DNA from: Chaetoceros tenuissimus
Lineage: Eukaryota > Bacillariophyta > Thalassiosirophyceae > Chaetocerotales > Chaetocerotaceae
DNA length: 64,000 nt
Direction: 5' to 3'
NCBI GenBank assembly: GCA_021927905.1
Contig: BLLK01000047.1
Span: 1,302,001 to 1,366,000, forward strand
A model generated the notes under the pieces. It ran no database searches and was not told the DNA's origin. It saw nothing but the letters and a program-made list of their open reading frames with translations. The position numbers and the translations under genes were made by a program. Shown in pieces: positions 35,554 to 64,000 of this stretch. Numbering within the stretch: the stretch's first letter is position 1; each line of letters opens with the position of its first letter.

Positions 35554-36713
35554 ATGGATACCGAGGAAGATGATAGTGTTGTTTCCGGTCAACAAGGAGG
35601 AGAATGTGTTTTAGATGAATTGCATGGAATAACTTCAACAAAGAAGAAAGAATTTCAGGAATTCAAAAACAAAGTAGAAACTTTGAATATTATTGCTTCG
35701 GTAATGAATAGGCGTAGAAAGAAGAAAAGGCTTGAAACGTGGACTCCGGAGATGGTTGAAATCTTTCAAACTAGACACTTTTCCAATTCGAAATACTTGA
35801 ACTCGCAAAATGATCTTCAAAGCATTGGACCCTTTCACATTTGCTCTTCTGACCCAATCAATTACAAGCTAGGAGCTCAAGAAACAGAGGTTACTATTCT
35901 CGATTGTGATGACATACTACGGGAGACTATCTCTTTTCTAGACTATTACTCTCTAAACAAAATGAGTTATGTTTCCAAGAGAGTGAACAGAATTGTTACT
36001 TCTTTGAAGAAAGAGGCTGCCCATGATTTGATTAATCGAATGCCTTTTGGTGTGGATGTTCATAGATCGCTTGGGACACCTATCTATTGTCCAACTTTTC
36101 ACTTCAACAAGTCGTGGGATCCAAAGTACAATGATTTTGATATCCTCGATTTTGACCGGTATCCAGATGGCCATCCATCATCGATCTAATCATGGACTTC
36201 ATGAAAAGATTTGATTTATTTGATTATTGGAGTTATAATGAGGAGACTGGCGAAGTGAATTGGGAGACCATGGAAACTTATTCAGTTGCTGTATGCCATT
36301 GTATTCACGAATACTCCAGTTTTTCTAGCCAGACAGTTCTAAACTTCATCCTGGAAGATCCGGAATTATCTGCCAACTTTATTCAAGAGGATTACAGGGG
36401 AGAGGATTGGATTGGGTTACATGTGATACCACGACGACGCGCTACGTTGAAAGAAGCATGGGAACTATTAGTTGATCGAGTAGTTTTTGATGTAGATTTG
36501 AAGGATTTGCCTAAAAAGAACAATCAAAAATACATGATATACAATTTGTTATCTGCAGCGGATCCGTCATCTATTCACATTTCTCACATCCATACGAGCG
36601 CCATCAGTGGCCTCTGCGCGAATGAGCATTCCGCCTATGATAATGTTGCTATTTCTTTTCAAGTGAATGGCGAAAGACTAGAATTCAGCGGATTTGTTTA
36701 CAACATAGGTTAG
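35554..36713 (+). pseudogene. F-box-like gene, left copy, frameshifted
   Basis: The frame opens at 35554 (MDTEEDDSVVSGQQGG) and runs to a stop at 36189; a second open block in another frame runs from 36192 to 36713. The right copy at 57579 reads through the same place. A single G present there after CCATCCA is absent here between 36177 and 36178, so this copy has a 1-nt deletion relative to it. An F-box-like segment lies at about residues 112-150 (ILRETISFLDYYSLNKMSYV, then SKRVNRIV). The rest, about 200 residues, matches nothing I recognise. Only this copy has the N-terminal 59 codons before the duplication boundary. It could be a recent pseudogene, a polymorphic allele or a sequencing error. 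It converges on the giant coiled-coil gene, 49 bp between ends. Confidence 0.7.
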
Positions 36714-39700
36714 AAATAAAATGGAAACTCATCAAACGTATTTTCTGTTAATTTACAATCAACTAAACTTCCTCTTCATCATCTGAAACTGACCAATTTA
36801 GACTGTCTATGGAGTTAGTATTTTGAATTTCGCCATATTGATCTGGTGGGGAATCATTTCTATATGGCGTTTGGTATGGAGCAGGAGAAGACTTCAAACT
36901 CATTTCTTGTTTCAAGAGACCTTCGCTTTGCAAATGCTGTTTCAAGGCGTATATTTTTTGCTTTGTAGTATGAAGCTGTCTTGCTAGATTTCTGGCTACG
37001 TTGATTTGCTCCTGAACTGCACTTTCTTTCTTTTTAATTTCTTTTTGGAATTGTTGAGACTTTGTCTCGAATTCAATTGTGAGTACCTCTTTCTCGTCTT
37101 GAGCAGACTTTAAAATATCCTCAATTTCTCTTCTATGCTTTACCTCGTGTGATAACGCTTCCTCGAGTTGTTTAATGTACTTTTTGCGCTGATTTAATTT
37201 TCTACTCAACTCCTCCTTCTGATTTTCAAGCTCCTGCACAAAAGACTTGAGGTCTTCGACTATTGTTTCCTTTTCACTCAGAGATTCCTTTGTACTTTCC
37301 ACATCGGCTAGCAAAGTGTCGATTTGGCTACTCATGGATGTCAAGAGTTTGTTCTTTTCGTCTAATTCTGCTTGAAGTAGCTGCAATTGAGAAGAGTCTG
37401 TTCCATGAGAATATGATTCTGTTGCTGGGGGTGATCTACTAGGTGATATGGCATTATTGATGGAAGCCTTCATCTTGACAAGATCATCTAGAAGCTCACT
37501 GTGTTTGTTAATAATGTCTGAAGCTGTCGGTGACAAGCTTGGTCTAGCACTAATTCCAAGGGAGACGTCATCGTCTTCTTCTAGATATTGTCGGTGAACA
37601 GGACTTTGTCCCTCTTGCTCCTCAAGTGCGCTTTGCTCGTCAAATGGAGCGAGTGACGAAGGAGTTTGAGAGCCTCTAGGAATGTTACCATTACGCAAAT
37701 CGTCTAATTCCAATTCCAGTTCTCCAATTTCTTTCTCTTTCTCCTCGATAGATTCACAAAGTAGTTGCACTTCATCTTCTGCAGCAGCAAGTTTATGATG
37801 AGTTTCTTCCAGTTTGGACACAAGGTCTCTGTTTTCGTCCAACATAACTTCTATTTCAGTTTCTCTGTCCTCAAGCTGTATTTCAAGATCAGTTATTCTC
37901 TCTTGTAAATCAGAACTTGGGCTCTGCCAGGAACTACTCTGGGTTTCAAGGGATTGGATCTGGCTCGATTTTGTGTGAACTTCCAATTCAAGAGTTGAAA
38001 TCATGTCCTTCTGAGTTGCGACTGCTGCTTCAAATTCATTGTTGACAGACTTCAAGTCGTCAAGATTCTTTTGCAAGTCAGCATTCTCGGCATTGATGGC
38101 ATAAATCTCCTCATTCTTGATCTCAATGTCATTCAATAGACGGACGCACTCCTTGTCGTGAATGTTAGCAAGCTTCTCAGCTCCAAAAAGTTTTGCCTTG
38201 GTTGTCTGCAGCTCATTTTCGACTTCATTCAGCCTTTCTTCACTAGACTTTTTCTCTGAAGCAAGAGCTTTTTTCAACTCTATCTGTGAGTTGGCTGCCA
38301 CTGTGAGGGAGTCACTTACACGAGAGATTTCTTTTTCAAGGTCTATCTTTTCATCTGATAGCTCAGATACAGTGCTAGTAAGGGCGGAAATCTGTAGCTT
38401 CAACTCGTCCATAGCAAAAGTCTTGTTGTCAACATCAGACTTTAGTTCTTGCATTTGCTCTGACATGCATTCTTGTTGTTTAATGCTTGCACTTTCGAGA
38501 TCTTGGAGTTTAGAAACTAACTCAGAATTCGTATTCTCTATTTGAGTCTTGATTTCTACAAGTTCGGTAATTCTTTCGTCCTTCTTTTCGAGTAGAGAAA
38601 TTGCATCATTTGCCGTTGCTTCAGTTTCTTTCATGGCATCCTGAATCTCTTGCTTCTCTTTAGTTGTAGCGCTGAGACTTGTATTTGCTTCTTGTAGTTT
38701 GTTCTTCAGATTGCAAAGGTCCTCCTTCAATCTACCAATTTCTTGTTGTAATGATGTCTCTGTAGACTGCTTACTCTCGAGAAGGGATGTATACTCGTCA
38801 GACTTGAGTTTTAAATGTTTTTCTAGGATTGTGGCAACCTTCTTTTGTGACAAGGAATGAGAATCAAAGTTTTCTTTTTGTACATTCAATTCCGATTTGA
38901 TCAAGGACAAATTCTTCTCCAATTTCTGGATATCTTTAATGTAGTTCTGGTTCTTTTCCATCAACTGGATTCTCTCATCTTGAAGGGAAGAGTTCTTCAT
39001 GATGATATTCGACTTTTCAGTTTCTACCTCGTTAAGTCTATTTTTCAATTCAGAATGTTGGGAAGCTAACTGAGAGTACTTGTTCTTCAACTCCTCCATA
39101 TCTCCGGTGATTTTTTCTTCGCGAGACAAAAAGTGTTCAAGCTCCAGAGCTACATCGTCCAAATCTTCTTCTAGATAAGCAACTTGCTTCTGATACATGG
39201 AGCTTTGATTCTTTGCTTCTTCAAGAACCATCATTTTGACTTCGGATTCGTTGATTACAGTCTCTGCATTGGCCTTTGCCTTCAACAGATCGTCAATTTC
39301 TACCATCTTGATTGAAATGCAGTCCTTGAGATCAGAATTCTCTTGGATCAGTTTTTCAATTGTTTCATCTTTCTGCAAGCTCTTATCTTGGGAAGAGGAC
39401 ATGTCATTGTAGATGGAAATAAGCTTGGTTTCCATATCAGACTTTTGTTCCTTTGCAGAGATGAGTTGATGTTTCAATTCAGATGAAGATTTCTTCATTT
39501 TTTCAATATCTTTTTGTAAGCTCTGAATGTCACGTTCTTTCGCATTCAAAGTTCTCTCAAGTCGATTCACTGCTTTTTCCCTACTGTTGGTCAGTTCGAA
39601 TCCAGCCATTGCATTGGAATGTTCGTCCTTTACTGCTTCTCGTAGCAACCTCACAAGATCTCGAGCATTGTCGATAGATAAATCTTCACTTGAAATATTC

Positions 39701-42165
39701 AGTTTGATTTCAGAAGCGATGAGGTCCTCACATGCACTTACAACATCTTCAGAAAGATTCGTGAAAGTAGATTTCAAATCAGCAACTTCACCTTCTGCGA
39801 TTGTAAGCTGTCGTTTCAAGGACAAAAGGGAATCATTGAGGTTCGATCTTTCACTCGTCATTTTGGAAATGATTATATCTTTGCGTTGATTGGATTCTTC
39901 CGAAGCGTTGAGTTTTTCGGTAAAAGACTTTACTTGCTCTTGGAGCAGCTCATCTCGAGCATTTCTAGACTCTAGCTGCTGTTGAAGCTCTTCAGCGGTA
40001 CGAGTCTTCATCTCAATTTCATCGGTGAGGGCGATAATGTCCTTCTTGGTAGTTTCGAGTGCGCTTCCTCTAGATTGACGAGCACAGCAGACATTTCTTT
40101 TTCATTCTGTGATTTCAATTTGGATACCTCGCTTTCAAATTTACTTTTCAAGGTTTCAGTAGAACTCTTCAATCTAGCCTTGGAAACTTTCAGTTGCTCT
40201 TCGGTGTGACTAATCTTTTTCTTCGAGCTCTCGATTTCTTTCTTCAAGTCTACATTGTTGGTGTAGCTCTCTTCAATCATCTGTTTCAGTTGAGCTTCAG
40301 TAGCTTGAGCTTGGTTTAGCTTATCTTGAGATGATTTCATCTCATGATTCAGACTAGCCATTGAATCTTCCAAGTCTTTGATATTGGACTCAAGATGGCC
40401 GATTGTCTGTCGCAAATTAGTAGTCACGGAAACTTCTTTGTTGTATTCTTCAGAAGCTTCCAATATTGTAGCCTCTTGTTGTTTCTCCTTTTCTTGAAGG
40501 CTCTTAATTATTACATCTTTTTCAGAAATAATGCCATTCAGATGAAGTTCCATCTCTGTCTTCAGATTCTTGGAGTTATCTAATTCTGATTTCAATTTCA
40601 TGTTATCAGCGCTGAGTAATTCAATGCGTTCCTGTATGTCTCCCTCCAATTTTGCGATTAAAACATCCTCATTTGCTTTCAAGTCAGTAATTATATTTTT
40701 GGATGTTTGAAGTTCTAATTCGAGTCCAGCCAAGGACTTGACCATTGACGACTTAGATTCCTGGACTCTGGCGAGGTTAGTCTTCAAAGCTTCGATTATT
40801 TTTTCATGAGACTTGATCTCTTTAGAATGAGATTCAGATAGTTCCATCAGTTTTGCCTTATGAATCTTTTCTACTTGCACAAGCTGCATTTTCAGGTCTT
40901 TTATTGTTGAGCACGATTCCTTTGTCTTGATTTCATTTTCCTGGAGAAGAGAATTGTATCTAGAATCAATGAGTGAGAGCTGTGTTTCTATCTCACACTT
41001 GGACTCTTCAATATCCTTCATGTCGATGATGAGTGTATCGATAGCATCCTGCTTCTCGACTAATTTTTCCTTGAGCTGAGAAATGACACCATCGCTTGAT
41101 TTCATCATTTCTTGAAGTCTATTGTTGAGAACATCAATTTGATCTTGATTGGATTGTTTTTGTGCGCAAAGAAGCTCTTGCTGCTTGTTGGCCTCAAACC
41201 TCCATTCAGTCACTTGATGCTGACTTTGTTTGTATTCGGATTGAATTTCCAAAACCTGTTTTTGTGCTGCTTCCAATTTCAACAGCGCAGAATCCTTTTC
41301 CTCTGTTGAAGCATCTAGCAAATTCTGCTTTTCATCTACATCATTCTGAAGCTTCTCAATAAAGTCTTCCTTTTCAGATAAAGAATCCTGCAAAATATTT
41401 TGGAATTGGATGTATCTAGACTCGGAATGTTGTGCAGCTGAACTGGTCTCTTTCAATGACTCTTCCAGTCTTTGTATTTCACTCTTGCTTGATTGTGTAT
41501 GTTCGTCAAGCTCTTTTCGCATATTCAAAAGACTTGCATTTGTCTCCTCTATTTTCCCAGGAACCTCAATTAGTTGGTCCTTTTCTGTTAATTTCTCTTC
41601 AAATCTTTCGAGTTGAGTGCATACTTCATCTCGATCTCTAGAAATTGCTTCTAGTTGAGATTGTTTCTCTTCGATATCTGCTTGAAGCTTCTCGATAAAG
41701 TCTTCCTTCTCTTCTACAGATTCGGAGAAAGATGCCTTGAGCTTTGAAAGTTTATCCTCGTAGGAACGGCTCAGTTGTGATAAGTGACTCTGCTTCTCAT
41801 CAGATGCATGCTTCAAGTTCAATTTAGCTTCGCGGATCTGATTCTCCAAGTCCAAAACAGTCCTCATCATATCACCATTGTTTGCCTCATCCTCAAGTGC
41901 TTCTTCGGCATGCTGAAGATCTCTTTCACAAGATTTGAGTTTCTCCTGCAATTCTTGGACTTGTTTGGAGTACCTAGTGTCGAGTTCATTTCTGTCACTT
42001 TCAAAAGATTTGACTTTTTCTTGCAATTTTTCCATATCTTTGACATGTTTGGCCTCGAGTTCATCTCTAGCACTGCGAAATGAATCGAGCGTAGATTGGA
42101 ACTGTTGTGCTTCTGTACTGTGTTTCTCTCTTTCGGCGGTCAGAGTTTCCTTGAGTTTGAAAAGG
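35731..42165. repeat. Direct segmental duplication, left copy
   Basis: Matches 57558..64000 in the same orientation, offset 21,827-21,835 bp. By reading both copies I count six substitutions (at 36066, 36594, 36601, 37525, 41784 and 42069 here) and two indels (1 bp near 36178, 7 bp near 40061) in about 6.4 kb. The left boundary is at CTTGAAACGTGG; upstream sequences are unrelated. The right boundary is unseen because the second copy leaves the window. Confidence 0.95.
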
Positions 42166-44247
42166 TCGCTGGAAGAGATTCTAGAAGTCTCCATCCATCG
42201 CTTTGTTTCTTCTTGAGCAGATGATAAACGAGATGCAAGGCTTTCATTATCTTTGACAAGTGCATCCCTTTCATTCTCACAGAGCTTGAGATTCTCATCG
42301 AGCAAAGCAACTTCTTTGTTCAAATCCACCACTTCAGCGCTCTTTTCGGCAAGAGAAGATTCCATCTTTATCAACTTTTGCTTAAATACATCAGCGTTCT
42401 CATTACTTCCATCCTCAAGTTGTTTCATGAGATTCTGGATGAATGCCTTGGAATCTGCAAGCTTCTCTTCAAGAGCAAGCTTTTCGTGGTCAAATCTGGA
42501 CCTCTCCTCTTCTAACTTGTTATTGAAATAATTCCCCTTGCTGGTAAAAGATCTCTGTAACTCTGAAAGTTGGTGACGGAGACTCTGAGATTCTGTCATG
42601 AGTGTTTGATTATGTTTGGAACTATTTTCCTGCTCAGTCAGGAGTTGTTTGTTCTGTTCTTCGAGCTCGCTGATACGCACATGATTCTGTTTGTTGAGGG
42701 TCTCCAAATTATTGATGATTCCGCCTTGACTAGATACCTCTTTTACCAATTGATTAGTTTTGTCCTTCTCCTCAAAAAGACTTTGCTGTGCTTTCTCAAA
42801 GTTTTGCTGCACAATAGTCAACTGAGACCTTGACGACTGAAGTAAAGCTACTTCCTCCTGTAGCGAATTAAGCTCTGATTCCAGCTCCTTCGACTTTTTA
42901 GTCTCATTTGAGAGTTGCTTTTGAGCGTTTTCAAAGCTCTGCTGAATAGTGGTTATCTGAGATTTCCCATCTACTAAACTTTGGTGAAGCTTTTCGTTCT
43001 CTCTTCTCAAATCTCTCTCCCTCTCTGACATTTGTTTCAAAAGCTGTTCCTCTCTACCCTTCTTTGAGTCTAATTCCTTCTGGGTAGCCTCAAGTTTCTG
43101 GTAGATTTGTGCAGTGGTTGATTCTAGAATTTGTTTAGAATCATCCAGTTGTTTCAAAGCATCGTCTCGCGATTTCTGAGTCTCGAGAAGTACAGCTTCA
43201 TGAGTTTTCTTCATTTCTTCTAATCTCTTTATTAGAATGCTGATTTCCTCCTTGAGATTAGATTCTAGTGTAGTTATTGAATCTTCTTTCTGTTTCAACG
43301 CTTCATCCTTGCGAATATTCTCCTCGTGAAGATTCTCTGACTCGGTCGTGAGCATGTTCAACTCCTCTGATAGTTCTGCAAGCTTCTTTTCAAGAGAAGC
43401 AATGTCCGATTTCAGTTCCATTTCCTTCTCTTGAAAAGTAGTTTCCTTGTCACTTAGTTCTGCTATCAAGCTTGTCACAAGCTCCTCTTTTTCCGATATT
43501 TTCTTGGAGACTTCTTCAACGGAGGATGTTCGAGTTACCAACTCGGTTGAAACTAAGCCTAGCTTCTTCTCCTTTTCTTGAAGCCTCTTTTCCAGAATGC
43601 TCAATTTCGTCTTGAAAAGATCCTTCTGCTCCAATTCTTTCTTGGCTTTGTTCAGCTGTCTATTCAGATCTCTTTCCTTTCCATTAAAGTCAACCTTTAG
43701 TTTTTCCTGCTCAGCACGCAATACACCATTTTGTTTCGCGAGTTCATTCACGCGCATAGTGCTTTCATCTAGACTTTGCTGAAACCGTTGAAGTTCATTT
43801 TCTTTCTCTTGCAAAACAGTTTTTATCTCTTCATCTTTTTCACATAGAATTGAATCGGAGAGTGTCTGAGTAAGAACAAAAACAAGGTTAGTATGAAACT
43901 TTCTATCAGACAAAGTTCAATGCACTATTTCATGTGAGAGTATGTACCTTTGCCTTTTGTGCTACTGAAAGCTCTTCCTGTAGATTATCCTTCTCACTCA
44001 ACACTGCAAGTTTCTCCTTATGGATGTCATTCATAATTTTTGTCATCATTTTCATGCTCTTTTCTTGCTCTCCAAGGGAAGCCTTGGCTTCACTTAATTC
44101 ACTCAAGAGTACCATTTTCATTCTGATGGTTTCATCTGATTCTTTGCTCGACCTGCCAGCAAAAGTCTGACCAATCTGCTTCGAAAGATTATTTGCAACT
44201 TGTGATTGTTTCGCCGTGCTCATTACAGGAGCAACGTTCTTCATCAC
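36763..44247 (-). pseudogene. Giant coiled-coil protein gene, left copy, frame interrupted once
   Basis: Exon 1 is 44247..43948; an 82-bp intron (43866..43947, donor GTACAT, acceptor CTCAG, phase 0) follows; exon 2 runs from 43865 to 36763. Translation is almost entirely heptad coiled coil rich in Glu, Lys, Leu, Ser and Gln, with an interruption near the C-terminus (Ser/Pro-rich, RPSLSPTASD) and a tail ending SVSDDEEEV. The left copy lacks 7 bp near 40061 that the right copy has, so the frame ends after EEAHSKLPRR and a second open block of 1,082 codons follows. The right-copy frame would give about 2,470 residues in total. Composition suggests a golgin-, centrosome- or cytoskeleton-like tether, but no family was recognised. 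No motor head or membrane helix is visible. Confidence 0.8.
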
Positions 44248-45237
44248 TGTACTGAGAACATCAGTAATGCCTCACGCAATCGCCCTTTAAATGTGTCAAA
44301 ACTCCCCACTCGACCGTCATCCTTTGGGCACTAACAAGTTTCATTACTCCAACGGTCCTTACAACACATGTGTAGCTTAGTACGCAATTCAATATTGCAT
44401 GAATTCTTCTTGGAATAATGTTGTACCATCCACTCCCATTGTCCCTTGATGACTTGAAGGCCCTGCTTTTGTTGCTGCCTACGGATAATTATCATTTCTC
44501 GTCACTTCTATATCATGAAGTGGGAGAAAATCAATCATCCATTCATATTCCCCGTGAATACCGACAGGAGGCCATGTGTCTTTGTTGTATAGATACGTGG
44601 CATTGATTTCTTGTGCAAAGTTCATCCCTAATACTACTTCGGTGAAACGATGACCTAATCCAGTATGGCCACTCAGAGGTAACATAGTAGCGAAGCGGAT
44701 ACAGTCGTTAGTAGCATTTGAAAGTATTGATGGTGTTCACCTTTCATCGCTTGCTTTGTTATTCTTGTTGCTCGCGATAGGAGAGGAGTCTTCTAGTCTT
44801 GGCTTGTTATTAGGGGATCCCTACTGGATGTGGTACTTACATTCTTTGTGATGGAATTTTCAGTAGCAAAGAAGTTGGAGAAAAGTGCCAATGCTAACGC
44901 ATTGTCCGTGTCAGATCAGGATACGTTACCTAACCGTTAGTCACTCTTCTCTCATCATGACCAGCCAATGACAAGAAGTTCTCAAATAGGTTTGAAAAGT
45001 GTTCGCGAGTCTTGAATAACAACATAAATTTAGTTCTCGGGAAAAAAGGGACCCTTGGGAAAAAGACCTGTTCCTCCCAAGATTTCCCTTCCGTTAGGAG
45101 AACTGTCAATGCCCCCCCATCTAGATTTTCCCCTCTGGAAATCATCCCAAGAGATTGGGGTGCTGGTATATTTCTTCTCATAATTTTTAGCATGGTTCTT
45201 CTATTCTGAACTGTCTCTTCTTTCACAATACTCCTGA
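44248..45237. other. Spacer region holding a gene fragment
   Basis: About 1 kb between the coiled-coil gene and the sulfotransferase-like gene. It holds the fragment at 44479..44750. A minus-strand frame at 44930..45253 lies in the 5' region of the next gene and lacks any family features. Nothing else was supported. Confidence 0.45.
44479..44750 (-). pseudogene. Glycosyltransferase-like gene fragment
   Basis: A short open block on the minus strand contains GHTGLGHRFTEVVLGMNFA, followed by NATYLYNKDTW and GIHGEYEWMIDFLPLH. The glycine/histidine opening followed by an NATY-type strand recalls nucleotide-sugar glycosyltransferases of the fucosyltransferase-like kind that are common in stramenopiles. 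It is only about 85 codons, has a stop just upstream of the block, and no splice site that would extend it was found. I read it as a remnant of a larger gene. Family identity is a weak inference. Confidence 0.4.
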
Positions 45238-46329
45238 TTGAAAATGTCAACATTTAAAAATAACAAGGATATCCTCAGAGTTTTTTGTGTTTTGCTTATT
45301 GTTTTGATTTACTATATTAACTCAGAATTTCGTCAAGTGAACAGCACAAATATTGCAAATAGCACTTCTAGTAGGGCTAGTAGTAGCGAATTGATGGGAG
45401 GATCCATCAAGAACAGGAGTTTTTCTTCATGCCAGCAAAAGAATATGTGTTTGTCATGTGTTTCTAAGGGATTGGAACTGGAGAAACTTGTCAACTCGAC
45501 ACAAAACGTCATTTTAATCATGCCGGCAAAGGCAGCTGGAACGTCATACAAATCATTTGCCAAGCAATGTTCAGGAAGGTCATATTCAAAGCTAAGAGAT
45601 AATTTCTTAAACTTTGAAACAGGAGAGAATTTTCTGACGAGTTCTTTTGAGCCGCCGGTGATTGCGTCCCATATGTATAAGGCTGAAACTATGACGAAGT
45701 TATTTCAGCATGCCTCAAAAGATACTTTATTCATATGGAGTCATCGTGAAGAGACGAGTCGCTTATTGTCTGCCATAAAACATGTTACAAAACAAATTTG
45801 TAGTGGATCTAGACCTCCGCCATCAGGGATTCAATTTTTGGAAAAGACAAATAAGAAATGCGTGATTTCTGAAAGCGATTTGATTGGTATAATTAAAAAA
45901 AAAACTATGGAGATAGGAATTGGTATGGAGCGATTATTATCATGTGATACCTATGATGCAATGAGAACTCATTTACCAAACCTTATATTAGCAGATTATA
46001 ATGAAGCGGATGAGATTCAAAAGCATGTGGCTCAAAGGTACTGTCATGAGCTATTGAAAAAGACGACAGTGCGCGAAAATGTCGCGAGTGATTTTAAAAC
46101 AGAAATGTATGTGAAACTCTCGAAAGCAGATCAAGCCACGGAGGCAAAGGCAGTGAACCATACGGTCCTACTAGAGAACTGGCTGAGAGTGAAACGCAGC
46201 TACATTGAATTGTCATTAGAACTGAAGAAGGACGTGAAATGCCAAGACAGAACTAGGCGTTTGGAACATACCCTTGATACCTGCGATGACCATATTGTAC
46301 AAATTGACAATGATTGGATTGGCAGATAG
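45238..46329 (+). CDS. Type II membrane protein, sulfotransferase-like
   Basis: 363 aa, single exon. A short cytosolic tail is followed by one membrane helix, ILRVFCVLLIVLIYYI (about 13-28), the topology of a Golgi type II enzyme. The lumenal part has several possible N-glycosylation sites (NSTNI, NSTSS, NHTV). NVILIMPAKAAGTSYKSF near residue 91 resembles the 5'-phosphosulfate loop of membrane sulfotransferases (PKxxGTS), which binds PAPS. FIWSHREETSRLLSAIKHV near 165 falls where the 3'-phosphate-binding Arg/Ser motif is expected. Many diatom genes of this type exist; the acceptor is unknown. An ATG two codons downstream is an equally good start. Confidence 0.7.
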   Translation: MKMSTFKNNKDILRVFCVLLIVLIYYINSEFRQVNSTNIANSTSSRASSSELMGGSIKNRSFSSCQQKNMCLSCVSKGLELEKLVNSTQNVILIMPAKAAGTSYKSFAKQCSGRSYSKLRDNFLNFETGENFLTSSFEPPVIASHMYKAETMTKLFQHASKDTLFIWSHREETSRLLSAIKHVTKQICSGSRPPPSGIQFLEKTNKKCVISESDLIGIIKKKTMEIGIGMERLLSCDTYDAMRTHLPNLILADYNEADEIQKHVAQRYCHELLKKTTVRENVASDFKTEMYVKLSKADQATEAKAVNHTVLLENWLRVKRSYIELSLELKKDVKCQDRTRRLEHTLDTCDDHIVQIDNDWIGR

Positions 46330-46689
46330 TCATGTGAAATAAGGCTTAATGTGGCATTTGCTCATGTGGAAGAGAAAGGTTACTTCCCTGTTATTAAAAG
46401 AAAGTCATCATCTATGTACATTTTAAAGCCAATGGGTTTACCTCTATTATCAATGTATTTTTATTTACCCTTGATAAGCAAGTCGATTTCACCAGGAATC
46501 TTCTTCCCCGAGCACCCCTCGAAAGTGATCTCAATTTATATTACCATCCTCCTTTTTCGTCTCTCTGAACCCATTCTAAACAACAACAAAGGCTTCTCAT
46601 GAAGTCCACCATTTTCAGCGCCAAACGTAAAAAATCCAAATAAGACCATTTGATTCGATTCGATTAAATTTTTAGGCGATGACCGCGAT
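46330..46689. other. Spacer between the sulfotransferase-like gene and the glycosyltransferase-like pseudogene
   Basis: 360 bp between two convergent 3' ends. A small plus-strand frame (46351..46602) has no family features. GCGCCAAA, an E2F-like octamer, occurs at 46618 with no gene downstream to regulate, which shows the background rate of that motif. Confidence 0.45.
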
Positions 46690-47891: not shown

Positions 47892-47939
47892 AATGTCCAG
47901 ATCTAGCTAGAATAGGATCGCGAATATTTTGAAAAGGAT

Positions 47940-47981
47940 GGTGAACTTGGGAAGGTTCGAAAAATGGAAGGGTTTGGAAAA
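47940..47981 (+). repeat. Imperfect direct repeat, left member
   Basis: GGTGAACTTGGGAAGG followed by TTCGAAAAATGGAAGGGTTT closely matches 51588..51627 in the same orientation. The pair brackets the transposase and cysteine-rich genes. Confidence 0.55.
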
Positions 47982-47991
47982 TTTTCTAAGT

Positions 47992-51474: not shown

Positions 51475-51587
51475 TGCAACTTGGTCATTTCCAATCCTTT
51501 GTAGAACTTCGAGTTTCCTAGGTCTGTTGAATCCGGTCCCTTGTCCGGTCCTACCTTTCAGTGTTTCAAAATACTGATGGTCTTTTG

Positions 51588-51627
51588 GTGAATTTGGGAA
51601 GTTCCAAGTGGAAGGGTTTGGAACACT
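51588..51627 (+). repeat. Imperfect direct repeat, right member
   Basis: GGTGAATTTGGGAAGTTCCA, then GTGGAAGGGTTTGGAACA, matching 47940..47981 with a few substitutions and small gaps. No second pair of equal quality was noticed elsewhere in the island. Confidence 0.55.
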
Positions 51628-51666
51628 TCAACCTGTTCCAAGCCATTCTTTTACCCATGACTACGC

Positions 51667-51715
51667 GCGTGGAAAACTCGTCCGCGTGGAAAACTCGTCC
51701 GAAACTCGGACGAGC
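51667..51715. repeat. 17-bp tandem duplication followed by an 8-bp hairpin
   Basis: GCGTGGAAAACTCGTCC occurs twice back to back (51667-51683 and 51684-51700). The second copy's end CTCGTCCG pairs with CGGACGAG a few bases later, forming a GC-rich hairpin that contrasts with the AT-rich surroundings. Confidence 0.7.
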
Positions 51716-52185
51716 TCTCTCAGCCACCAACACAGGAAAAGATGTTTTTTCACAACATACAACACCATCACCAACTGAAACTAGACACAACATCAACATA
51801 TATAATAATTAGAAGATGAAAAATCATATACATACACAGTATGGATAACCGTCTTCATCCATAACAATAGAACATGTAAGAGGACATTGTAAATTGAAAA
51901 ATCTGCTTTTCTACAAACATATTTCCTCACGTCTTCGAAGAAAATAAATTTTTCTTTACATTTTACTACCTCTTTTGAAACAGAGTAGATAGCACAACTT
52001 CCTTTTTTGAATTTCCAATGCAGACTGTTCATTCCATGACTCGATTTGAATTACGGAAGGGCAATAGTAGTAGTGGCTCCTAATGTCGCAGCTGTTTTTT
52101 CAAAAAAGGCAAGCGAAATTTTGCATGCATACTGTCACGTAATAGTCAACACACAACTTTTCATTACCAAGGAACACATGAAAAC

Positions 52186-54211: not shown

Positions 54212-54430
54212 TGTTTTGTGCTGTTTTGTGTGGTCAATATGACGTCATCTTTGAGACTCCAATCCTATTTCGTCATTGGATTGTACAATGAATAGAAATT
54301 CAACCGAAGGCGGAGGGCGGAAGACTTTGAAAAGACTTCCTTCAAAATGCAAGGAATAATTATTTCTGATGCCATCATAAGTATTTCTTCTAGCAGCAAA
54401 GGAATAGTCTAAGAAAGTATCAAAACATTT

Positions 54431-56628
54431 TCACAGTAGTTGTAAGTCAATCAAACTAATTATGACATCCCTTATATCTACCTTCGCTCCTTCTTCATTT
54501 TCGATATGCTGCATTTGATCTCTCACGTCAGGGATAACATTGTCTGCTCCTTCTTCTTCATTTTCCATATAGAGATTATTTATCATTTCCAACGTATGCC
54601 TTTTCTTTGCTCTTCGTTTGCGAGTGAGCTTTCTATCTGTATACAACTCCGATGGATCTGGCTCTGTTTCGAAATCAAAGTGCATATTATTTGCAAGGTC
54701 TTGCAATTCAATAATTTCCGCTTTCATTCCATTTATGAATACTGGATCGCAAAACTCTTTGAAACCGAAATTTTTCAGTTCATCAATGTGCCTTTTGATT
54801 TCATCAACTGTTTGACCATCTTGAAGCCATAGAATGTCAAAGATTTTACATGCATTGAATGCCTTTTGCGCTTTTCTTATTGATTCATCTGAAAACAGTT
54901 TCTCATACTTATCAAAGACAACCTTTGCAATGTCTTTACAGTACTCAATGAAGTCATCTTCTGAAATCAATCCATCAAACGTTCCATCAAGCTCAAGTAA
55001 TTCATCTTCGTGTTCTGCCAATTCCTTTTTCTTCTCATCTATTTCCTTCTTCTTAGCTTCCAATTCTTCCTTTTTCTTATCAACATTACCTTGCATATCA
55101 ATTGCAGTTGATGTACGACGACCTGCCATTGCAGCGAAGTCTTGGTGGTTATTCCTACGCCTTCCTCTAGCCGACGTTGACCTTCCATTCGCATCAGCCA
55201 AAGCACTTTCTGCTTCTTCAAGTGATGCCTGTAAATTCTCTTTTTCTGCATTTAATGTATTGATTGAAGATTCTGCTTCATCTATCTGCGCAAGTATTGG
55301 ATTGCGTTGTTTTGCAACTTCCTCAGCTGCGTGTCTACATTGCTTTCTAGTTGATGACTCCTCTGAAAAGTGTGGTCCTCGTCGCACAAAATTCTCAATT
55401 CGTTCAAGAATTGTATACACACAGATAGTGAGGGGGTCTTCTCCTTCTGAAAGGTAAGTTGCTAGACAGAACTCTCGACCTATTTCTGCAATTGTCGCCA
55501 CCTGCACTTAATTTTTAATAACTTTAGAGTTGTGTCATATGACTTCTTCAACTTGACAATCGATTTCTCTGACAACTTCTTAGCCTCTGCATAAGGAACC
55601 CAAGTTGAAATTATATTTCTTATTCCAAAACCATTTAGCTGTACTGACTGCTCCCAGTCCAGATACCAGCGCACTCCTCCTGCTATGACGGGCGATTCGT
55701 TCATGGACTCTTTTGCAAAGATATATAGCTTCCCACGGAACATGATAGCAGTGTTTAAATGTTTCTGAAATTCGTAGTATTCCTTACATATCTTTTTGAA
55801 CTCCTTTCCCGGTCCTGAGAATACATGTGGAAAACATGGGAAAAAGGACGGTTTGTAAAATGACTTGGTATTGATCTCAGATATTGCTTTTTGATTATTT
55901 TTCGCTCGATCCATAATTGAGGCTTTCCAATTCTCTAAGTCTAAACCAAACCTTTTCAACTCATTTATTAGGTGCACTGCTATTCCTTCTCCTGACAAAG
56001 ATGTTTGATATAACTGCAGAGAAATTAGTATCTCCACAATCTTGTGGTCATGGATGCGCACCAACCGCAGTTCTGCATTTGCCCCAAGTGGGCTTCCGTC
56101 AGATATTGAAACAAAAGCAGGATAACAACCATCCAAAGTCCACTTGATTTTCTTTAGCTGCTTTTCCCGCAACGATTTCCCAATTAGTCGAGGTAAATCT
56201 TTCACATTACCAAGATTCAAATTTGGGTTTCCCTTCAAATCAAGCGCTTCCTTGATTGTCTCAAGCATCGAATCCGACATGTTACTTTTGAGGTGTATCT
56301 CATAGACCTGCATTCTAAATTTGTCCACCACCTTATCAACAGTCAGACCTGCTAAGTCTTCTTCAAGTTGCTTTTTCTTAAGCTGCTCAATAACTTCGTC
56401 TAGGATTCGCTCATCAGCTTCCTTGCTGGTTTCGCCTTCTTTCCTGCCACTAGTGATTAGACTTTCCTGTGTCTTCGTGAATGAATTCCAATGCTTATCA
56501 CCAGCTAAATGTTGGCCAAATTTTTTCGGGACATAAGTATAACAATTGTTGCAGAATACTTTTCCATCTCTGTATGTAAGACTGTGTCCCTTTTTTATTA
56601 GGCCCTCCTCTCTCAAAAGGTGGGGCAT
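54431..56628 (-). mobile_element. hAT-like DNA transposase gene, one frame break
   Basis: Two overlapping minus-strand blocks, 56628..55480 (382 codons) and 55507..54431 (358 codons), in different frames. The first starts with a BED/C2H2-like zinc finger, VFCNNCYTYVPKKFGQHL followed by GDKH (about 29-50), then an RNase H-like core: VSISDGSPLG (first Asp), SIMDRAKNNQKAI (second Asp), FPCFPHVFSG and VRWYLDWEQ, in the order seen in hAT-type transposases. The second block opens with TIAEIGREFCLATYLSEGED, like the post-catalytic hAT helix region, then coiled coil. The frame changes near an A-rich run at about 55,520, and no splice sites explain it. This suggests a recently dead or mis-sequenced copy. 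Terminal inverted repeats were not found. Confidence 0.6.
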
Positions 56629-57557
56629 TCTTCTTGGTTACTATGCATTTCCAAGGTTTGGAAATAAAATTGTCAAACTCAAATCTACTCTTGCAAGTAT
56701 AGGGATCTTTAATTCCAATTGTGGCTGTGCGAGAAAAAGGTGCACCAAAATAGAAAAGTGAGAGCAGATTCGGCGATAAATTGAGGCCTATTTAGATCCA
56801 GATCGAGGTAGGTTTATGTGGGATGAGTAGGATAGGTAGGTTGTGGTAGGATGGATATTTCCCGAGTGGGGTTTGCTCAACGTCTCTCGTTTCTCCTATT
56901 TCATTTTTGTATCATGCATATCCTCAATGTCTCATCTATGAGAGTTTTCATTGTTCATCTCTTCCACAAGCACGAATTCACCAACATTATTTGTCAAACA
57001 GCTCGTAAATACCACAACCAAGCTACCTGTCTACTTGCTTCCTATGGTAGTAAAAGATACGCTTGCAGCTTCAAACCCAAAATCTTCAGCAATATTTTTC
57101 AAATCTATACATATTTTTCGTCCAATCAAAAGAAAGGTAGCCATCATGATATGACAATAATCACAACACCATGAAAAGAGCGAAGCAGATTCTTCAAGTC
57201 CTCTAGAACTCGTTAGTCGTCGTCTCTCGCTCTATCTTGCTTGTTGCTTGCTTTTCCTTGTTCATCAAATGGCAACTGAGCTTTTTTCTATCTTTTCTCC
57301 CACATGAAACGACTTCTCAACCATCATATATTATCCTAACAACATAGAACTGAATGCACCAATTATATATAGAAATGCGGACTATGTAGAAAGCTGATAG
57401 TGTGATGATTGATGATTGATTATGCAGTTATGTATCGCGTTCTATGTGCTTGTGCTGGACTCTGAAACAAGTTCATCCAAAAAACAAAAAACTTTTTAAA
57501 AGCTCGATTCTGATTGGCTATCTTTTTTAAAAACTCAACGCTGATTGGCTACTTTAT
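56629..57557. other. Spacer up to the duplication breakpoint
   Basis: About 930 bp. Small overlapping plus-strand frames near 56851-57174 show no family features. It includes a GGTAGG-rich stretch (56805-56850) and the 31-bp tandem duplication next to the breakpoint. No gene is supported. Confidence 0.45.
57493..57551. repeat. 31-bp tandem duplication with CCAAT boxes next to the breakpoint
   Basis: TTTTTAAAAGCTCGATTCTG continues as ATTGGCTA; a second diverged copy begins 31 bp later (57524). Each copy contains ATTGG, a reverse CCAAT box. The array ends six bases before the start of the duplicated segment at 57558. Confidence 0.75.
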
Positions 57558-57578
57558 CTTGAAACGTGGACTCCGGAG

Positions 57579-58541
57579 ATGGTTGAAATCTTTCAAACTA
57601 GACACTTTTCCAATTCGAAATACTTGAACTCGCAAAATGATCTTCAAAGCATTGGACCCTTTCACATTTGCTCTTCTGACCCAATCAATTACAAGCTAGG
57701 AGCTCAAGAAACAGAGGTTACTATTCTCGATTGTGATGACATACTACGGGAGACTATCTCTTTTCTAGACTATTACTCTCTAAACAAAATGAGTTATGTT
57801 TCCAAGAGAGTGAACAGAATTGTTACTTCTTTGAAGAAAGAGGCTGCCCATGATTTGATTAATCGAATGCCTTTTGGTGTGGATGTTCATAGGTCGCTTG
57901 GGACACCTATCTATTGTCCAACTTTTCACTTCAACAAGTCGTGGGATCCAAAGTACAATGATTTTGATATCCTCGATTTTGACCGGTATCCAGATGGCCA
58001 TCCAGTCATCGATCTAATCATGGACTTCATGAAAAGATTTGATTTATTTGATTATTGGAGTTATAATGAGGAGACTGGCGAAGTGAATTGGGAGACCATG
58101 GAAACTTATTCAGTTGCTGTATGCCATTGTATTCACGAATACTCCAGTTTTTCTAGCCAGACAGTTCTAAACTTCATCCTGGAAGATCCGGAATTATCTG
58201 CCAACTTTATTCAAGAGGATTACAGGGGAGAGGATTGGATTGGGTTACATGTGATACCACGACGACGCGCTACGTTGAAAGAAGCATGGGAACTATTAGT
58301 TGATCGAGTAGTTTTTGATGTAGATTTGAAGGATTTGCCTAAAAAGAACAATCAAAAATACATGATATACAATTTGTTATCTGCAGCGGATCCGTCATCT
58401 ATTCACATTTCTCACATCCATGCGAGCGTCATCAGTGGCCTCTGCGCGAATGAGCATTCCGCCTATGATAATGTTGCTATTTCTTTTCAAGTGAATGGCG
58501 AAAGACTAGAATTCAGCGGATTTGTTTACAACATAGGTTAG
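57579..58541 (+). CDS. F-box-like protein, right copy, 5'-truncated but open frame
   Basis: 320 codons from the first ATG (MVEIFQTRHFSNSKYL) to the same stop as the left copy. The frame is continuous, because the G missing from the left copy is present here (HPVIDLIMDF). The F-box-like segment lies at about residues 54-92. Compared with the left copy it lacks the N-terminal 59 or so codons and the original promoter, since the duplicated segment begins at 57558. Two residues differ (IHASVIS here, IHTSAIS on the left). If expressed, transcription would start from sequence upstream of the breakpoint, where two CCAAT boxes lie. Function beyond possible SKP1 binding is unknown. Confidence 0.6.
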   Translation: MVEIFQTRHFSNSKYLNSQNDLQSIGPFHICSSDPINYKLGAQETEVTILDCDDILRETISFLDYYSLNKMSYVSKRVNRIVTSLKKEAAHDLINRMPFGVDVHRSLGTPIYCPTFHFNKSWDPKYNDFDILDFDRYPDGHPVIDLIMDFMKRFDLFDYWSYNEETGEVNWETMETYSVAVCHCIHEYSSFSSQTVLNFILEDPELSANFIQEDYRGEDWIGLHVIPRRRATLKEAWELLVDRVVFDVDLKDLPKKNNQKYMIYNLLSAADPSSIHISHIHASVISGLCANEHSAYDNVAISFQVNGERLEFSGFVYNIG

Positions 58542-58590
58542 AAATAAAATGGAAACTCATCAAACGTATTTTCTGTTAATTTACAATCAA

Positions 58591-61500
58591 CTAAACTTCC
58601 TCTTCATCATCTGAAACTGACCAATTTAGACTGTCTATGGAGTTAGTATTTTGAATTTCGCCATATTGATCTGGTGGGGAATCATTTCTATATGGCGTTT
58701 GGTATGGAGCAGGAGAAGACTTCAAACTCATTTCTTGTTTCAAGAGACCTTCGCTTTGCAAATGCTGTTTCAAGGCGTATATTTTTTGCTTTGTAGTATG
58801 AAGCTGTCTTGCTAGATTTCTGGCTACGTTGATTTGCTCCTGAACTGCACTTTCTTTCTTTTTAATTTCTTTTTGGAATTGTTGAGACTTTGTCTCGAAT
58901 TCAATTGTGAGTACCTCTTTCTCGTCTTGAGCAGACTTTAAAATATCCTCAATTTCTCTTCTATGCTTTACCTCGTGTGATAACGCTTCCTCGAGTTGTT
59001 TAATGTACTTTTTGCGCTGATTTAATTTTCTACTCAACTCCTCCTTCTGATTTTCAAGCTCCTGCACAAAAGACTTGAGGTCTTCGACTATTGTTTCCTT
59101 TTCACTCAGAGATTCCTTTGTACTTTCCACATCGGCTAGCAAAGTGTCGATTTGGCTACTCATGGATGTCAAGAGTTTGTTCTTTTCGTCTAATTCTGCT
59201 TGAAGTAGCTGCAATTGAGAAGAGTCTGTTCCATGAGAATATGATTCTGTTGCTGGGGGTGATCTACTAGGTGATATGGCATTATTGATGGAAGCCTTCA
59301 TCTTGACAAGATCATCTAGAAGCTCACTGTGTTTGTTAATAATGTCTGAAGCAGTCGGTGACAAGCTTGGTCTAGCACTAATTCCAAGGGAGACGTCATC
59401 GTCTTCTTCTAGATATTGTCGGTGAACAGGACTTTGTCCCTCTTGCTCCTCAAGTGCGCTTTGCTCGTCAAATGGAGCGAGTGACGAAGGAGTTTGAGAG
59501 CCTCTAGGAATGTTACCATTACGCAAATCGTCTAATTCCAATTCCAGTTCTCCAATTTCTTTCTCTTTCTCCTCGATAGATTCACAAAGTAGTTGCACTT
59601 CATCTTCTGCAGCAGCAAGTTTATGATGAGTTTCTTCCAGTTTGGACACAAGGTCTCTGTTTTCGTCCAACATAACTTCTATTTCAGTTTCTCTGTCCTC
59701 AAGCTGTATTTCAAGATCAGTTATTCTCTCTTGTAAATCAGAACTTGGGCTCTGCCAGGAACTACTCTGGGTTTCAAGGGATTGGATCTGGCTCGATTTT
59801 GTGTGAACTTCCAATTCAAGAGTTGAAATCATGTCCTTCTGAGTTGCGACTGCTGCTTCAAATTCATTGTTGACAGACTTCAAGTCGTCAAGATTCTTTT
59901 GCAAGTCAGCATTCTCGGCATTGATGGCATAAATCTCCTCATTCTTGATCTCAATGTCATTCAATAGACGGACGCACTCCTTGTCGTGAATGTTAGCAAG
60001 CTTCTCAGCTCCAAAAAGTTTTGCCTTGGTTGTCTGCAGCTCATTTTCGACTTCATTCAGCCTTTCTTCACTAGACTTTTTCTCTGAAGCAAGAGCTTTT
60101 TTCAACTCTATCTGTGAGTTGGCTGCCACTGTGAGGGAGTCACTTACACGAGAGATTTCTTTTTCAAGGTCTATCTTTTCATCTGATAGCTCAGATACAG
60201 TGCTAGTAAGGGCGGAAATCTGTAGCTTCAACTCGTCCATAGCAAAAGTCTTGTTGTCAACATCAGACTTTAGTTCTTGCATTTGCTCTGACATGCATTC
60301 TTGTTGTTTAATGCTTGCACTTTCGAGATCTTGGAGTTTAGAAACTAACTCAGAATTCGTATTCTCTATTTGAGTCTTGATTTCTACAAGTTCGGTAATT
60401 CTTTCGTCCTTCTTTTCGAGTAGAGAAATTGCATCATTTGCCGTTGCTTCAGTTTCTTTCATGGCATCCTGAATCTCTTGCTTCTCTTTAGTTGTAGCGC
60501 TGAGACTTGTATTTGCTTCTTGTAGTTTGTTCTTCAGATTGCAAAGGTCCTCCTTCAATCTACCAATTTCTTGTTGTAATGATGTCTCTGTAGACTGCTT
60601 ACTCTCGAGAAGGGATGTATACTCGTCAGACTTGAGTTTTAAATGTTTTTCTAGGATTGTGGCAACCTTCTTTTGTGACAAGGAATGAGAATCAAAGTTT
60701 TCTTTTTGTACATTCAATTCCGATTTGATCAAGGACAAATTCTTCTCCAATTTCTGGATATCTTTAATGTAGTTCTGGTTCTTTTCCATCAACTGGATTC
60801 TCTCATCTTGAAGGGAAGAGTTCTTCATGATGATATTCGACTTTTCAGTTTCTACCTCGTTAAGTCTATTTTTCAATTCAGAATGTTGGGAAGCTAACTG
60901 AGAGTACTTGTTCTTCAACTCCTCCATATCTCCGGTGATTTTTTCTTCGCGAGACAAAAAGTGTTCAAGCTCCAGAGCTACATCGTCCAAATCTTCTTCT
61001 AGATAAGCAACTTGCTTCTGATACATGGAGCTTTGATTCTTTGCTTCTTCAAGAACCATCATTTTGACTTCGGATTCGTTGATTACAGTCTCTGCATTGG
61101 CCTTTGCCTTCAACAGATCGTCAATTTCTACCATCTTGATTGAAATGCAGTCCTTGAGATCAGAATTCTCTTGGATCAGTTTTTCAATTGTTTCATCTTT
61201 CTGCAAGCTCTTATCTTGGGAAGAGGACATGTCATTGTAGATGGAAATAAGCTTGGTTTCCATATCAGACTTTTGTTCCTTTGCAGAGATGAGTTGATGT
61301 TTCAATTCAGATGAAGATTTCTTCATTTTTTCAATATCTTTTTGTAAGCTCTGAATGTCACGTTCTTTCGCATTCAAAGTTCTCTCAAGTCGATTCACTG
61401 CTTTTTCCCTACTGTTGGTCAGTTCGAATCCAGCCATTGCATTGGAATGTTCGTCCTTTACTGCTTCTCGTAGCAACCTCACAAGATCTCGAGCATTGTC

Positions 61501-64000
61501 GATAGATAAATCTTCACTTGAAATATTCAGTTTGATTTCAGAAGCGATGAGGTCCTCACATGCACTTACAACATCTTCAGAAAGATTCGTGAAAGTAGAT
61601 TTCAAATCAGCAACTTCACCTTCTGCGATTGTAAGCTGTCGTTTCAAGGACAAAAGGGAATCATTGAGGTTCGATCTTTCACTCGTCATTTTGGAAATGA
61701 TTATATCTTTGCGTTGATTGGATTCTTCCGAAGCGTTGAGTTTTTCGGTAAAAGACTTTACTTGCTCTTGGAGCAGCTCATCTCGAGCATTTCTAGACTC
61801 TAGCTGCTGTTGAAGCTCTTCAGCGGTACGAGTCTTCATCTCAATTTCATCGGTGAGGGCGATAATGTCCTTCTTGGTAGTTTCGAGTGATTGATGCGCT
61901 TCCTCTAGATTGACGAGCACAGCAGACATTTCTTTTTCATTCTGTGATTTCAATTTGGATACCTCGCTTTCAAATTTACTTTTCAAGGTTTCAGTAGAAC
62001 TCTTCAATCTAGCCTTGGAAACTTTCAGTTGCTCTTCGGTGTGACTAATCTTTTTCTTCGAGCTCTCGATTTCTTTCTTCAAGTCTACATTGTTGGTGTA
62101 GCTCTCTTCAATCATCTGTTTCAGTTGAGCTTCAGTAGCTTGAGCTTGGTTTAGCTTATCTTGAGATGATTTCATCTCATGATTCAGACTAGCCATTGAA
62201 TCTTCCAAGTCTTTGATATTGGACTCAAGATGGCCGATTGTCTGTCGCAAATTAGTAGTCACGGAAACTTCTTTGTTGTATTCTTCAGAAGCTTCCAATA
62301 TTGTAGCCTCTTGTTGTTTCTCCTTTTCTTGAAGGCTCTTAATTATTACATCTTTTTCAGAAATAATGCCATTCAGATGAAGTTCCATCTCTGTCTTCAG
62401 ATTCTTGGAGTTATCTAATTCTGATTTCAATTTCATGTTATCAGCGCTGAGTAATTCAATGCGTTCCTGTATGTCTCCCTCCAATTTTGCGATTAAAACA
62501 TCCTCATTTGCTTTCAAGTCAGTAATTATATTTTTGGATGTTTGAAGTTCTAATTCGAGTCCAGCCAAGGACTTGACCATTGACGACTTAGATTCCTGGA
62601 CTCTGGCGAGGTTAGTCTTCAAAGCTTCGATTATTTTTTCATGAGACTTGATCTCTTTAGAATGAGATTCAGATAGTTCCATCAGTTTTGCCTTATGAAT
62701 CTTTTCTACTTGCACAAGCTGCATTTTCAGGTCTTTTATTGTTGAGCACGATTCCTTTGTCTTGATTTCATTTTCCTGGAGAAGAGAATTGTATCTAGAA
62801 TCAATGAGTGAGAGCTGTGTTTCTATCTCACACTTGGACTCTTCAATATCCTTCATGTCGATGATGAGTGTATCGATAGCATCCTGCTTCTCGACTAATT
62901 TTTCCTTGAGCTGAGAAATGACACCATCGCTTGATTTCATCATTTCTTGAAGTCTATTGTTGAGAACATCAATTTGATCTTGATTGGATTGTTTTTGTGC
63001 GCAAAGAAGCTCTTGCTGCTTGTTGGCCTCAAACCTCCATTCAGTCACTTGATGCTGACTTTGTTTGTATTCGGATTGAATTTCCAAAACCTGTTTTTGT
63101 GCTGCTTCCAATTTCAACAGCGCAGAATCCTTTTCCTCTGTTGAAGCATCTAGCAAATTCTGCTTTTCATCTACATCATTCTGAAGCTTCTCAATAAAGT
63201 CTTCCTTTTCAGATAAAGAATCCTGCAAAATATTTTGGAATTGGATGTATCTAGACTCGGAATGTTGTGCAGCTGAACTGGTCTCTTTCAATGACTCTTC
63301 CAGTCTTTGTATTTCACTCTTGCTTGATTGTGTATGTTCGTCAAGCTCTTTTCGCATATTCAAAAGACTTGCATTTGTCTCCTCTATTTTCCCAGGAACC
63401 TCAATTAGTTGGTCCTTTTCTGTTAATTTCTCTTCAAATCTTTCGAGTTGAGTGCATACTTCATCTCGATCTCTAGAAATTGCTTCTAGTTGAGATTGTT
63501 TCTCTTCGATATCTGCTTGAAGCTTCTCGATAAAGTCTTCCTTCTCTTCTACAGATTCGGAGAAAGATGCCTTGAGCTTTGAAAGTTTATCCTCGTAGGA
63601 ACGGCTCAGTTGTGATAACTGACTCTGCTTCTCATCAGATGCATGCTTCAAGTTCAATTTAGCTTCGCGGATCTGATTCTCCAAGTCCAAAACAGTCCTC
63701 ATCATATCACCATTGTTTGCCTCATCCTCAAGTGCTTCTTCGGCATGCTGAAGATCTCTTTCACAAGATTTGAGTTTCTCCTGCAATTCTTGGACTTGTT
63801 TGGAGTACCTAGTGTCGAGTTCATTTCTGTCACTTTCAAAAGATTTGACTTTTTCTTGCAATTTTTCCATATCTTTGACATGTTTGGCCTCGAGTTCATC
63901 TCTGGCACTGCGAAATGAATCGAGCGTAGATTGGAACTGTTGTGCTTCTGTACTGTGTTTCTCTCTTTCGGCGGTCAGAGTTTCCTTGAGTTTGAAAAGG
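58591..64000 (-). CDS. Giant coiled-coil protein, right copy, C-terminal part with continuous frame
   Basis: The frame is open from the right edge down to the stop at 58591, about 1,800 codons visible; it enters from beyond the window. It reads through EEAHQSLETTKKDIIALTDE where the left copy loses 7 bp. The rest is identical to the left copy except for single substitutions, one of which changes DEKQSQLS here from DEKQSHLS there. Coiled coil occupies nearly all of it, with a Ser/Pro-rich break about 230 residues from the end. This is probably the functional copy, provided its 5' end is present to the right. Confidence 0.8.
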   Translation of the reverse strand, partial: LFKLKETLTAEREKHSTEAQQFQSTLDSFRSARDELEAKHVKDMEKLQEKVKSFESDRNELDTRYSKQVQELQEKLKSCERDLQHAEEALEDEANNGDMMRTVLDLENQIREAKLNLKHASDEKQSQLSQLSRSYEDKLSKLKASFSESVEEKEDFIEKLQADIEEKQSQLEAISRDRDEVCTQLERFEEKLTEKDQLIEVPGKIEETNASLLNMRKELDEHTQSSKSEIQRLEESLKETSSAAQHSESRYIQFQNILQDSLSEKEDFIEKLQNDVDEKQNLLDASTEEKDSALLKLEAAQKQVLEIQSEYKQSQHQVTEWRFEANKQQELLCAQKQSNQDQIDVLNNRLQEMMKSSDGVISQLKEKLVEKQDAIDTLIIDMKDIEESKCEIETQLSLIDSRYNSLLQENEIKTKESCSTIKDLKMQLVQVEKIHKAKLMELSESHSKEIKSHEKIIEALKTNLARVQESKSSMVKSLAGLELELQTSKNIITDLKANEDVLIAKLEGDIQERIELLSADNMKLKSELDNSKNLKTEMELHLNGIISEKDVIIKSLQEKEKQQEATILEASEEYNKEVSVTTNLRQTIGHLESNIKDLEDSMASLNHEMKSSQDKLNQAQATEAQLKQMIEESYTNNVDLKKEIESSKKKISHTEEQLKVSKARLKSSTETLKSKFESEVSKLKSQNEKEMSAVLVNLEEAHQSLETTKKDIIALTDEIEMKTRTAEELQQQLESRNARDELLQEQVKSFTEKLNASEESNQRKDIIISKMTSERSNLNDSLLSLKRQLTIAEGEVADLKSTFTNLSEDVVSACEDLIASEIKLNISSEDLSIDNARDLVRLLREAVKDEHSNAMAGFELTNSREKAVNRLERTLNAKERDIQSLQKDIEKMKKSSSELKHQLISAKEQKSDMETKLISIYNDMSSSQDKSLQKDETIEKLIQENSDLKDCISIKMVEIDDLLKAKANAETVINESEVKMMVLEEAKNQSSMYQKQVAYLEEDLDDVALELEHFLSREEKITGDMEELKNKYSQLASQHSELKNRLNEVETEKSNIIMKNSSLQDERIQLMEKNQNYIKDIQKLEKNLSLIKSELNVQKENFDSHSLSQKKVATILEKHLKLKSDEYTSLLESKQSTETSLQQEIGRLKEDLCNLKNKLQEANTSLSATTKEKQEIQDAMKETEATANDAISLLEKKDERITELVEIKTQIENTNSELVSKLQDLESASIKQQECMSEQMQELKSDVDNKTFAMDELKLQISALTSTVSELSDEKIDLEKEISRVSDSLTVAANSQIELKKALASEKKSSEERLNEVENELQTTKAKLFGAEKLANIHDKECVRLLNDIEIKNEEIYAINAENADLQKNLDDLKSVNNEFEAAVATQKDMISTLELEVHTKSSQIQSLETQSSSWQSPSSDLQERITDLEIQLEDRETEIEVMLDENRDLVSKLEETHHKLAAAEDEVQLLCESIEEKEKEIGELELELDDLRNGNIPRGSQTPSSLAPFDEQSALEEQEGQSPVHRQYLEEDDDVSLGISARPSLSPTASDIINKHSELLDDLVKMKASINNAISPSRSPPATESYSHGTDSSQLQLLQAELDEKNKLLTSMSSQIDTLLADVESTKESLSEKETIVEDLKSFVQELENQKEELSRKLNQRKKYIKQLEEALSHEVKHRREIEDILKSAQDEKEVLTIEFETKSQQFQKEIKKKESAVQEQINVARNLARQLHTTKQKIYALKQHLQSEGLLKQEMSLKSSPAPYQTPYRNDSPPDQYGEIQNTNSIDSLNWSVSDDEEEV

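Follow-up and report, generated by a model that had tools for sequence, protein, structure and literature searches.

The closest described counterparts of the locus reported here are tandem duplications with a breakpoint insert of the type ascribed to fork stalling and template switching (FoSTeS) or microhomology-mediated break-induced replication (MMBIR). For complex human insertions, microhomology and templated insertions have been reported (PMC5120786), and for complex mouse variants both microhomology and FoSTeS/MMBIR have been discussed (PMC3439969). We analysed a window of 64,000 nucleotides from the diatom Chaetoceros tenuissimus (contig BLLK01000047.1, here C34, 4,456,483 bp; window C34:1302001-1366000; other C-numbers are further contigs of the same genome), in which a unit of about 8.5 kb with parts of an F-box gene and a PDZ/coiled-coil gene occurs twice. 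The locus resembles the FoSTeS/MMBIR-type cases in its direct repeat, in the extra DNA lying exactly at the inner junction and in possible short microhomology at both joins. It differs from them in that the insert is 13.3 kb long and itself a mosaic, with no intact donor found, and in that the structure was met in the reference assembly of an alga and not as a new mutation.

Duplication mediated by extrachromosomal circular DNA is a second type to which the locus may be likened, in that a circular intermediate reinserts and thereby gives a duplication; in the case described, the cut circle reintegrates elsewhere, whereas here the copies flank the block at the original site (PMC7188851). Local duplication of F-box genes is a third, as F-box relatives are clustered at C27:1488805-1511447 (27-46% identity per matched piece, with two further matched pieces on C13), but the unit studied here has parts of two genes and lies outside that cluster. 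The locus represents a known kind of structural variant, of which only the instance is new.

Extent and boundaries of the duplicated unit

In our reading, which we consider probable, a unit of 8.54 kb was duplicated directly in tandem and a repeat-rich block of 13.3 kb was captured at the inner junction, likely in a single event. Based on self-BLAST of the window we found one long direct match, 35731-42165 against 57558-64000, with 99.78% identity, 6 mismatches and 2 gap openings, the same counts that an earlier note, made from the letters of this stretch alone, had given for repeats starting at 35731 and 57558. As the right copy runs past the window end, the next 30 kb of the contig were added to the comparison, and BLAST with global alignment then gave the full unit (Table 1), so that the length of at least 6.4 kb proposed earlier was extended to 8.5 kb; the last 2.1 kb of copy 2 lie outside the window. 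The copies are in the same orientation and 99.82% identical over 8,546 columns, with 7 substitutions (four change an amino acid, three leave it unchanged), one 1-bp indel and one 7-bp indel, and copy 1 is the shorter one at both indels. Both edges are sharp: the sequences upstream of 35731 and 57558 differ at once, as the earlier note had also observed, and on the right the match stops abruptly at 44268 and 66103.

The genome search found the unit at two places only in its own genome, with neither a third copy nor a leftover haplotype contig; because of this and of the match E value of 0, the repeat is not due to chance. The copies are not adjacent head to tail. Since 13,289 bp part them, we describe the locus as a duplication with a junction insertion and not as a plain tandem duplication. 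The earlier note had proposed a 21.8-kb tandem unit, 35731..57557, with the whole island recurring to the right. This was rejected, as no part of 44269-57557 was found in the 27.9 kb read past 66103, and its alternative, that only the F-box/coiled-coil part was copied, stands.

Table 1. Positions of the duplicated unit, the spacer and the features within them, in window numbering.
Feature	Position	Strand	Basis or remark
Copy 1 of unit	35731..44268	none	BLAST and global alignment, 8,538 bp
Copy 2 of unit	57558..64000, on to 66103 outside window	none	BLAST, 8,546 bp in all
Spacer, mosaic of fragments matching other genome places, some of them repeats	44269..57557	none	BLAST, genome search; 13,289 bp
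Inner junction 1 (unit/spacer)	44266..44269	none	possible 3-bp microhomology AAT with C21
F-box gene, putative 5' end, 59 codons, outside unit, only beside copy 1	35554..35730	+	open reading frame 35554..36189 continuous across 35730/35731
F-box gene body, copy 1	35731..36713	+	split into two frames near 36178, where 1 bp present in copy 2 is missing
F-box open reading frame, copy 2, 320 aa, open, without original 5' end	57579..58541	+	Pfam F-box 1.8e-05
Coiled-coil gene, copy 1, without PDZ-bearing N-terminus	36763..44247	-	out of frame, as 7 bp present in copy 2 are missing at 40060
Coiled-coil gene, copy 2, open frame	58591..64000, continuing past window	-	open reading frame, Pfam
Truncated IS630/Tc1-like transposon	48191..51587	+	93% to C61:54547-57922; Pfam DDE_3 1.4e-08
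Block 99.1% identical to C24:46344-48790	54746..57189	none	genome search and alignment; 6 substitutions, 3 indels
Copy of dispersed repeat family, cut at inner junction 2	56888..57557	none	4 of 4 relatives in the alignment carry the family on beyond 57557

Gene content and ancestral order

The unit contains the body of the F-box gene on the plus strand and most of a very long gene on the minus strand, for which a coiled coil was called from the sequence of the protein. In copy 2 the coiled-coil frame is linked, across what looks like a short intron, to a PDZ exon at 65765-66742, whose open reading frame (ORF) of 325 aa crosses the right boundary at 66103 in frame (Pfam PDZ 4.5e-06). About 213 of the 325 codons, including the PDZ domain at residues 97-139, are outside the unit and missing from copy 1. 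As read from these frames, the PDZ/coiled-coil gene is intact across 66103 and kept whole in copy 2, which argues strongly that the right outer edge is ancestral at copy 2.

For the left edge we compared the F-box gene in both copies. Upstream of copy 2 the F-box frame ends in a stop codon, without a methionine before the internal start. The 59-codon extension beside copy 1 had an in-frame codon score of 0.28, which was equalled by 19 of 4686 frames from ORF-free windows, these windows overlapping and the frames not being independent. The F-box search gave 12 paralogue rows in all, and N-termini were compared for the five lying in fetched loci; all five, with their start inside the locus, have an N-terminal extension of about 55 residues before the internal start in the alignment. 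On a profile of these five N-termini copy 1 scored 24.4 and copy 2 scored 17.2, and 6 of 300 shuffles matched copy 1. With moderate confidence, this suggests that the F-box gene crosses the left edge of copy 1, so that the left outer edge would be ancestral there, which is supported less firmly than the right one.

Because complete genes lie on opposite outer edges, the ancestral order would be left flank - unit - right flank, and the unit would therefore have been duplicated directly, with the inner junction occupied by the spacer.

In a Pfam scan of 10 proteins F-box, PDZ and DDE_3 were above the cut-off, and for 7 of the 10 nothing was. Rfam gave 0 matches to RNA genes in the window.

Inner junctions and proposed mechanism

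Inner junction 1 reads ...CATCAGTAAT / GCCTCACG, with AAT common to C21, the single relative compared, and inner junction 2 reads ...CTACTTTAT / CTTGAAACG, with CTT, or CTTG with some relatives, given a gap of about 9 bases. Microhomology of 3-4 bp is possible at both inner junctions, and is supported less firmly than the boundaries themselves. We infer one event, which would have begun at the right edge with either a broken end or a stalled fork. Through a 3-bp match this would have been joined to a repeat-rich donor, or would have switched to it; 13.3 kb would then have been added, and a 3-4 bp match would have brought the end back to the unit at its left edge. The pathway may have been template switching mediated by microhomology, or a DNA fragment may have been end-joined between sister chromatids.

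The same layout, with the block abutting both copies, would also be given by a circular DNA of 21.8 kb, holding unit and 13.3-kb block, if one homologous crossover with the unit in the chromosome had integrated it to give unit-block-unit. The 21.8-kb period would then be the size of the circle, and for human regions a duplication by way of circles has been proposed (PMC7188851). However, this requires the making of a chimeric circle as an additional step, nothing else in the data pointed to such a circle, and the sequence fits the duplication with capture equally well; we consider integration of a circle unlikely. In the opposite direction, the direct repeats should let the spacer and one unit loop out as a 21.8-kb circle. 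That the period reflects a chimeric circle which entered by homologous recombination and is able to leave again by looping out, with the locus switching between one copy of the unit and a duplicated state in which the F-box gene is broken, is a decidedly doubtful extension of this idea.

Composition of the spacer

The spacer has at least 55 matches elsewhere in its own genome, covering about 8.9 of 13.3 kb (67%), many of them repeats; these counts are lower bounds, with 39 of 62 candidates scored. The largest matches listed were to C61 (93%), C24 (99.1% over 2.45 kb), C21 (85% and 91%), C60 (95%) and C46 (90%), and the right end is a dispersed repeat with relatives near 71%. The GC content is similar in flank, unit and spacer (0.38-0.39) and is 38.6% in the window, and 38.9% was reported for the genome of C. 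tenuissimus NIES-3715 (PMC8613185).

The IS630/Tc1-like transposon in the spacer has a DDE_3 transposase ORF at 48535-49758 and passenger ORFs on the minus strand. It has one terminal inverted repeat only, whereas its relative on C61 has both. That relative, at C61:54547-58464, is about 3.9 kb long with inverted repeats of about 160 bp, and opposite its transposase lie two long ORFs, of which one is cysteine-rich. Directly beside the inverted repeat of the element in the spacer, a 67-bp unit is repeated 3.2 times (47987-48199).

The piece shared with C24 has sharp ends, without inverted repeats and without shared flanks, and the longer form is that of the window. On its right side a repeat family that is broken off in C24 runs on without a break in the window, and on its left side ORF 54431-55507 extends onward in the window. 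Judged from these ends, it is the piece on C24 that looks like a fragment. C24 was rejected as the donor, only 2.45 kb being common to both. Substitutions amounted to 6 in 2444 for this piece versus 7 in 8538 for the unit copies (Fisher P 0.049).

At the right end of the spacer, a 666-bp repeat ending near 57554 was considered as the end of an element and rejected, as its relatives extend beyond it. The C24 sequence, which is also in this alignment, is already outside the family at 57189. Two direct copies of the same family, about 1.36 kb apart and 96% alike, were found at C44:1308010-1310003, with 98.7% relatives on C48.

If the duplication and the insertion were separate events, a plain tandem duplication would have come first and the repeat block would later have inserted at its junction, or the unit would have been copied in dispersed fashion 13.3 kb away. 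Later insertions do happen, as seen from the many-copy repeats nearby at 32401-33302 and 68434-68976. At the spacer ends we found no target-site duplication of 2-12 bp. Similarity of the inverted ends over 50, 200 and 600 bp was reached by 126, 22 and 41 of 300 shuffles, with none clear, and that of the direct ends by 30, 135 and 229 of 300. One of these six tests, the inverted ends over 200 bp, was borderline (22 of 300) and would favour two events. The spacer as one mobile element was rejected, having no target duplication, no clear end similarity and a truncated repeat at its right end. The same absences speak against a later insertion, which moreover would have had to land exactly on the junction, an improbable outcome, and a dispersed copy would not put complete genes on opposite outer edges. 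We therefore rate two events as very unlikely.

Age and assembly

The 7 substitutions in 8,538 bp bear out the very young event that the earlier note had proposed. With a substitution rate borrowed from Phaeodactylum (PMC6604790) and no gene conversion assumed, the copies would have parted roughly 860,000 cell generations ago.

Young copies may also arise in the assembly, if a hybrid assembler or haplotype merger put two haplotypes or repeat-ended contigs in series. If the genome is that of NIES-3715, it is that of a diploid with 1.56% heterozygosity, and its assembly combined Illumina with MinION reads and used MaSuRCA and HaploMerger2 (PMC8613185). The two indels, both frame-breaking in copy 1, look suspicious, and their ratio of 2:7 to substitutions is high against the published diatom rates of 4.77e-10 for substitutions and 1.58e-11, about 30 times lower, for indels (PMC6604790). 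However, at the published 1.56% about 133 differences would be expected between two alleles over 8.5 kb, as compared to the 7 seen, the strain being presumed to be NIES-3715. Tracts of low heterozygosity can occur. In addition, 10 kb of either outer flank gave no match to the spacer above chance (best E 0.078), so that the plain ancestral locus would be found in neither haplotype. Identity at the inner junctions is 0-4 bp, whereas repeat-driven misjoins need longer overlaps, and neither indel is in a homopolymer. An assembly artefact has, in our judgement, a small chance, and two alleles in series, as the earlier note had allowed for, are unlikely.

Some observations weigh against the duplication with capture, or against parts of it. 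Indels are many for a young pair (2 versus 7 substitutions), and their high share could reflect relaxed selection or assembly error. Among the genome matches listed there was no donor for the whole 13.3-kb block, the best single match being 2.4 kb at 99.1%, and spacer pieces of at least 300 bp other than that to C24 match at 69-95%. At junction 2 the relatives carry about 9 extra bases ahead of the letters that match, which makes the CTT(G) microhomology uncertain. For the F-box 5' extension, 19 of 236 stop-free ORF-free frames reach its codon score, the N-terminus of copy 1 by itself gives only 2.8 bits versus the paralogue profile, and one-to-one shuffles against three single paralogues were not significant (P 0.14, 0.98 and 0.81).

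Consequences for the two genes

As assembled, the F-box gene is incomplete in both copies, with copy 1 frameshifted and copy 2 without the 5' end, and the likely functional effect of the duplication would be loss and not gain. F-box and coiled-coil gene models at this locus include partial copies. If the duplication with capture is right, the locus is a young diatom example with readable junctions, in which duplication and large insertion seem to have arisen together, and it shows that neighbouring genes can be duplicated and damaged at once by template switching or by integration of a circle. If not, the structural variant is an ordinary one.

Neighbouring repeats

The flanks (5 kb each) gave only short repeat-like matches elsewhere, the widest at 32382-33314 and 68431-68986. 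The first includes a repeat of about 0.9 kb (32401-33302), 2.4 kb left of copy 1, which has many copies, several of them 97-98% identical over most of the length, and is a candidate for a recently active element. A second very recent tandem duplication, of 823 bp and 99.88% identity, was found 20 kb past copy 2 at C34:1388507-1390151 (86507-88151 in window numbering), and is followed by shorter tandem-repeat arrays at 88971-91174 (window numbering).

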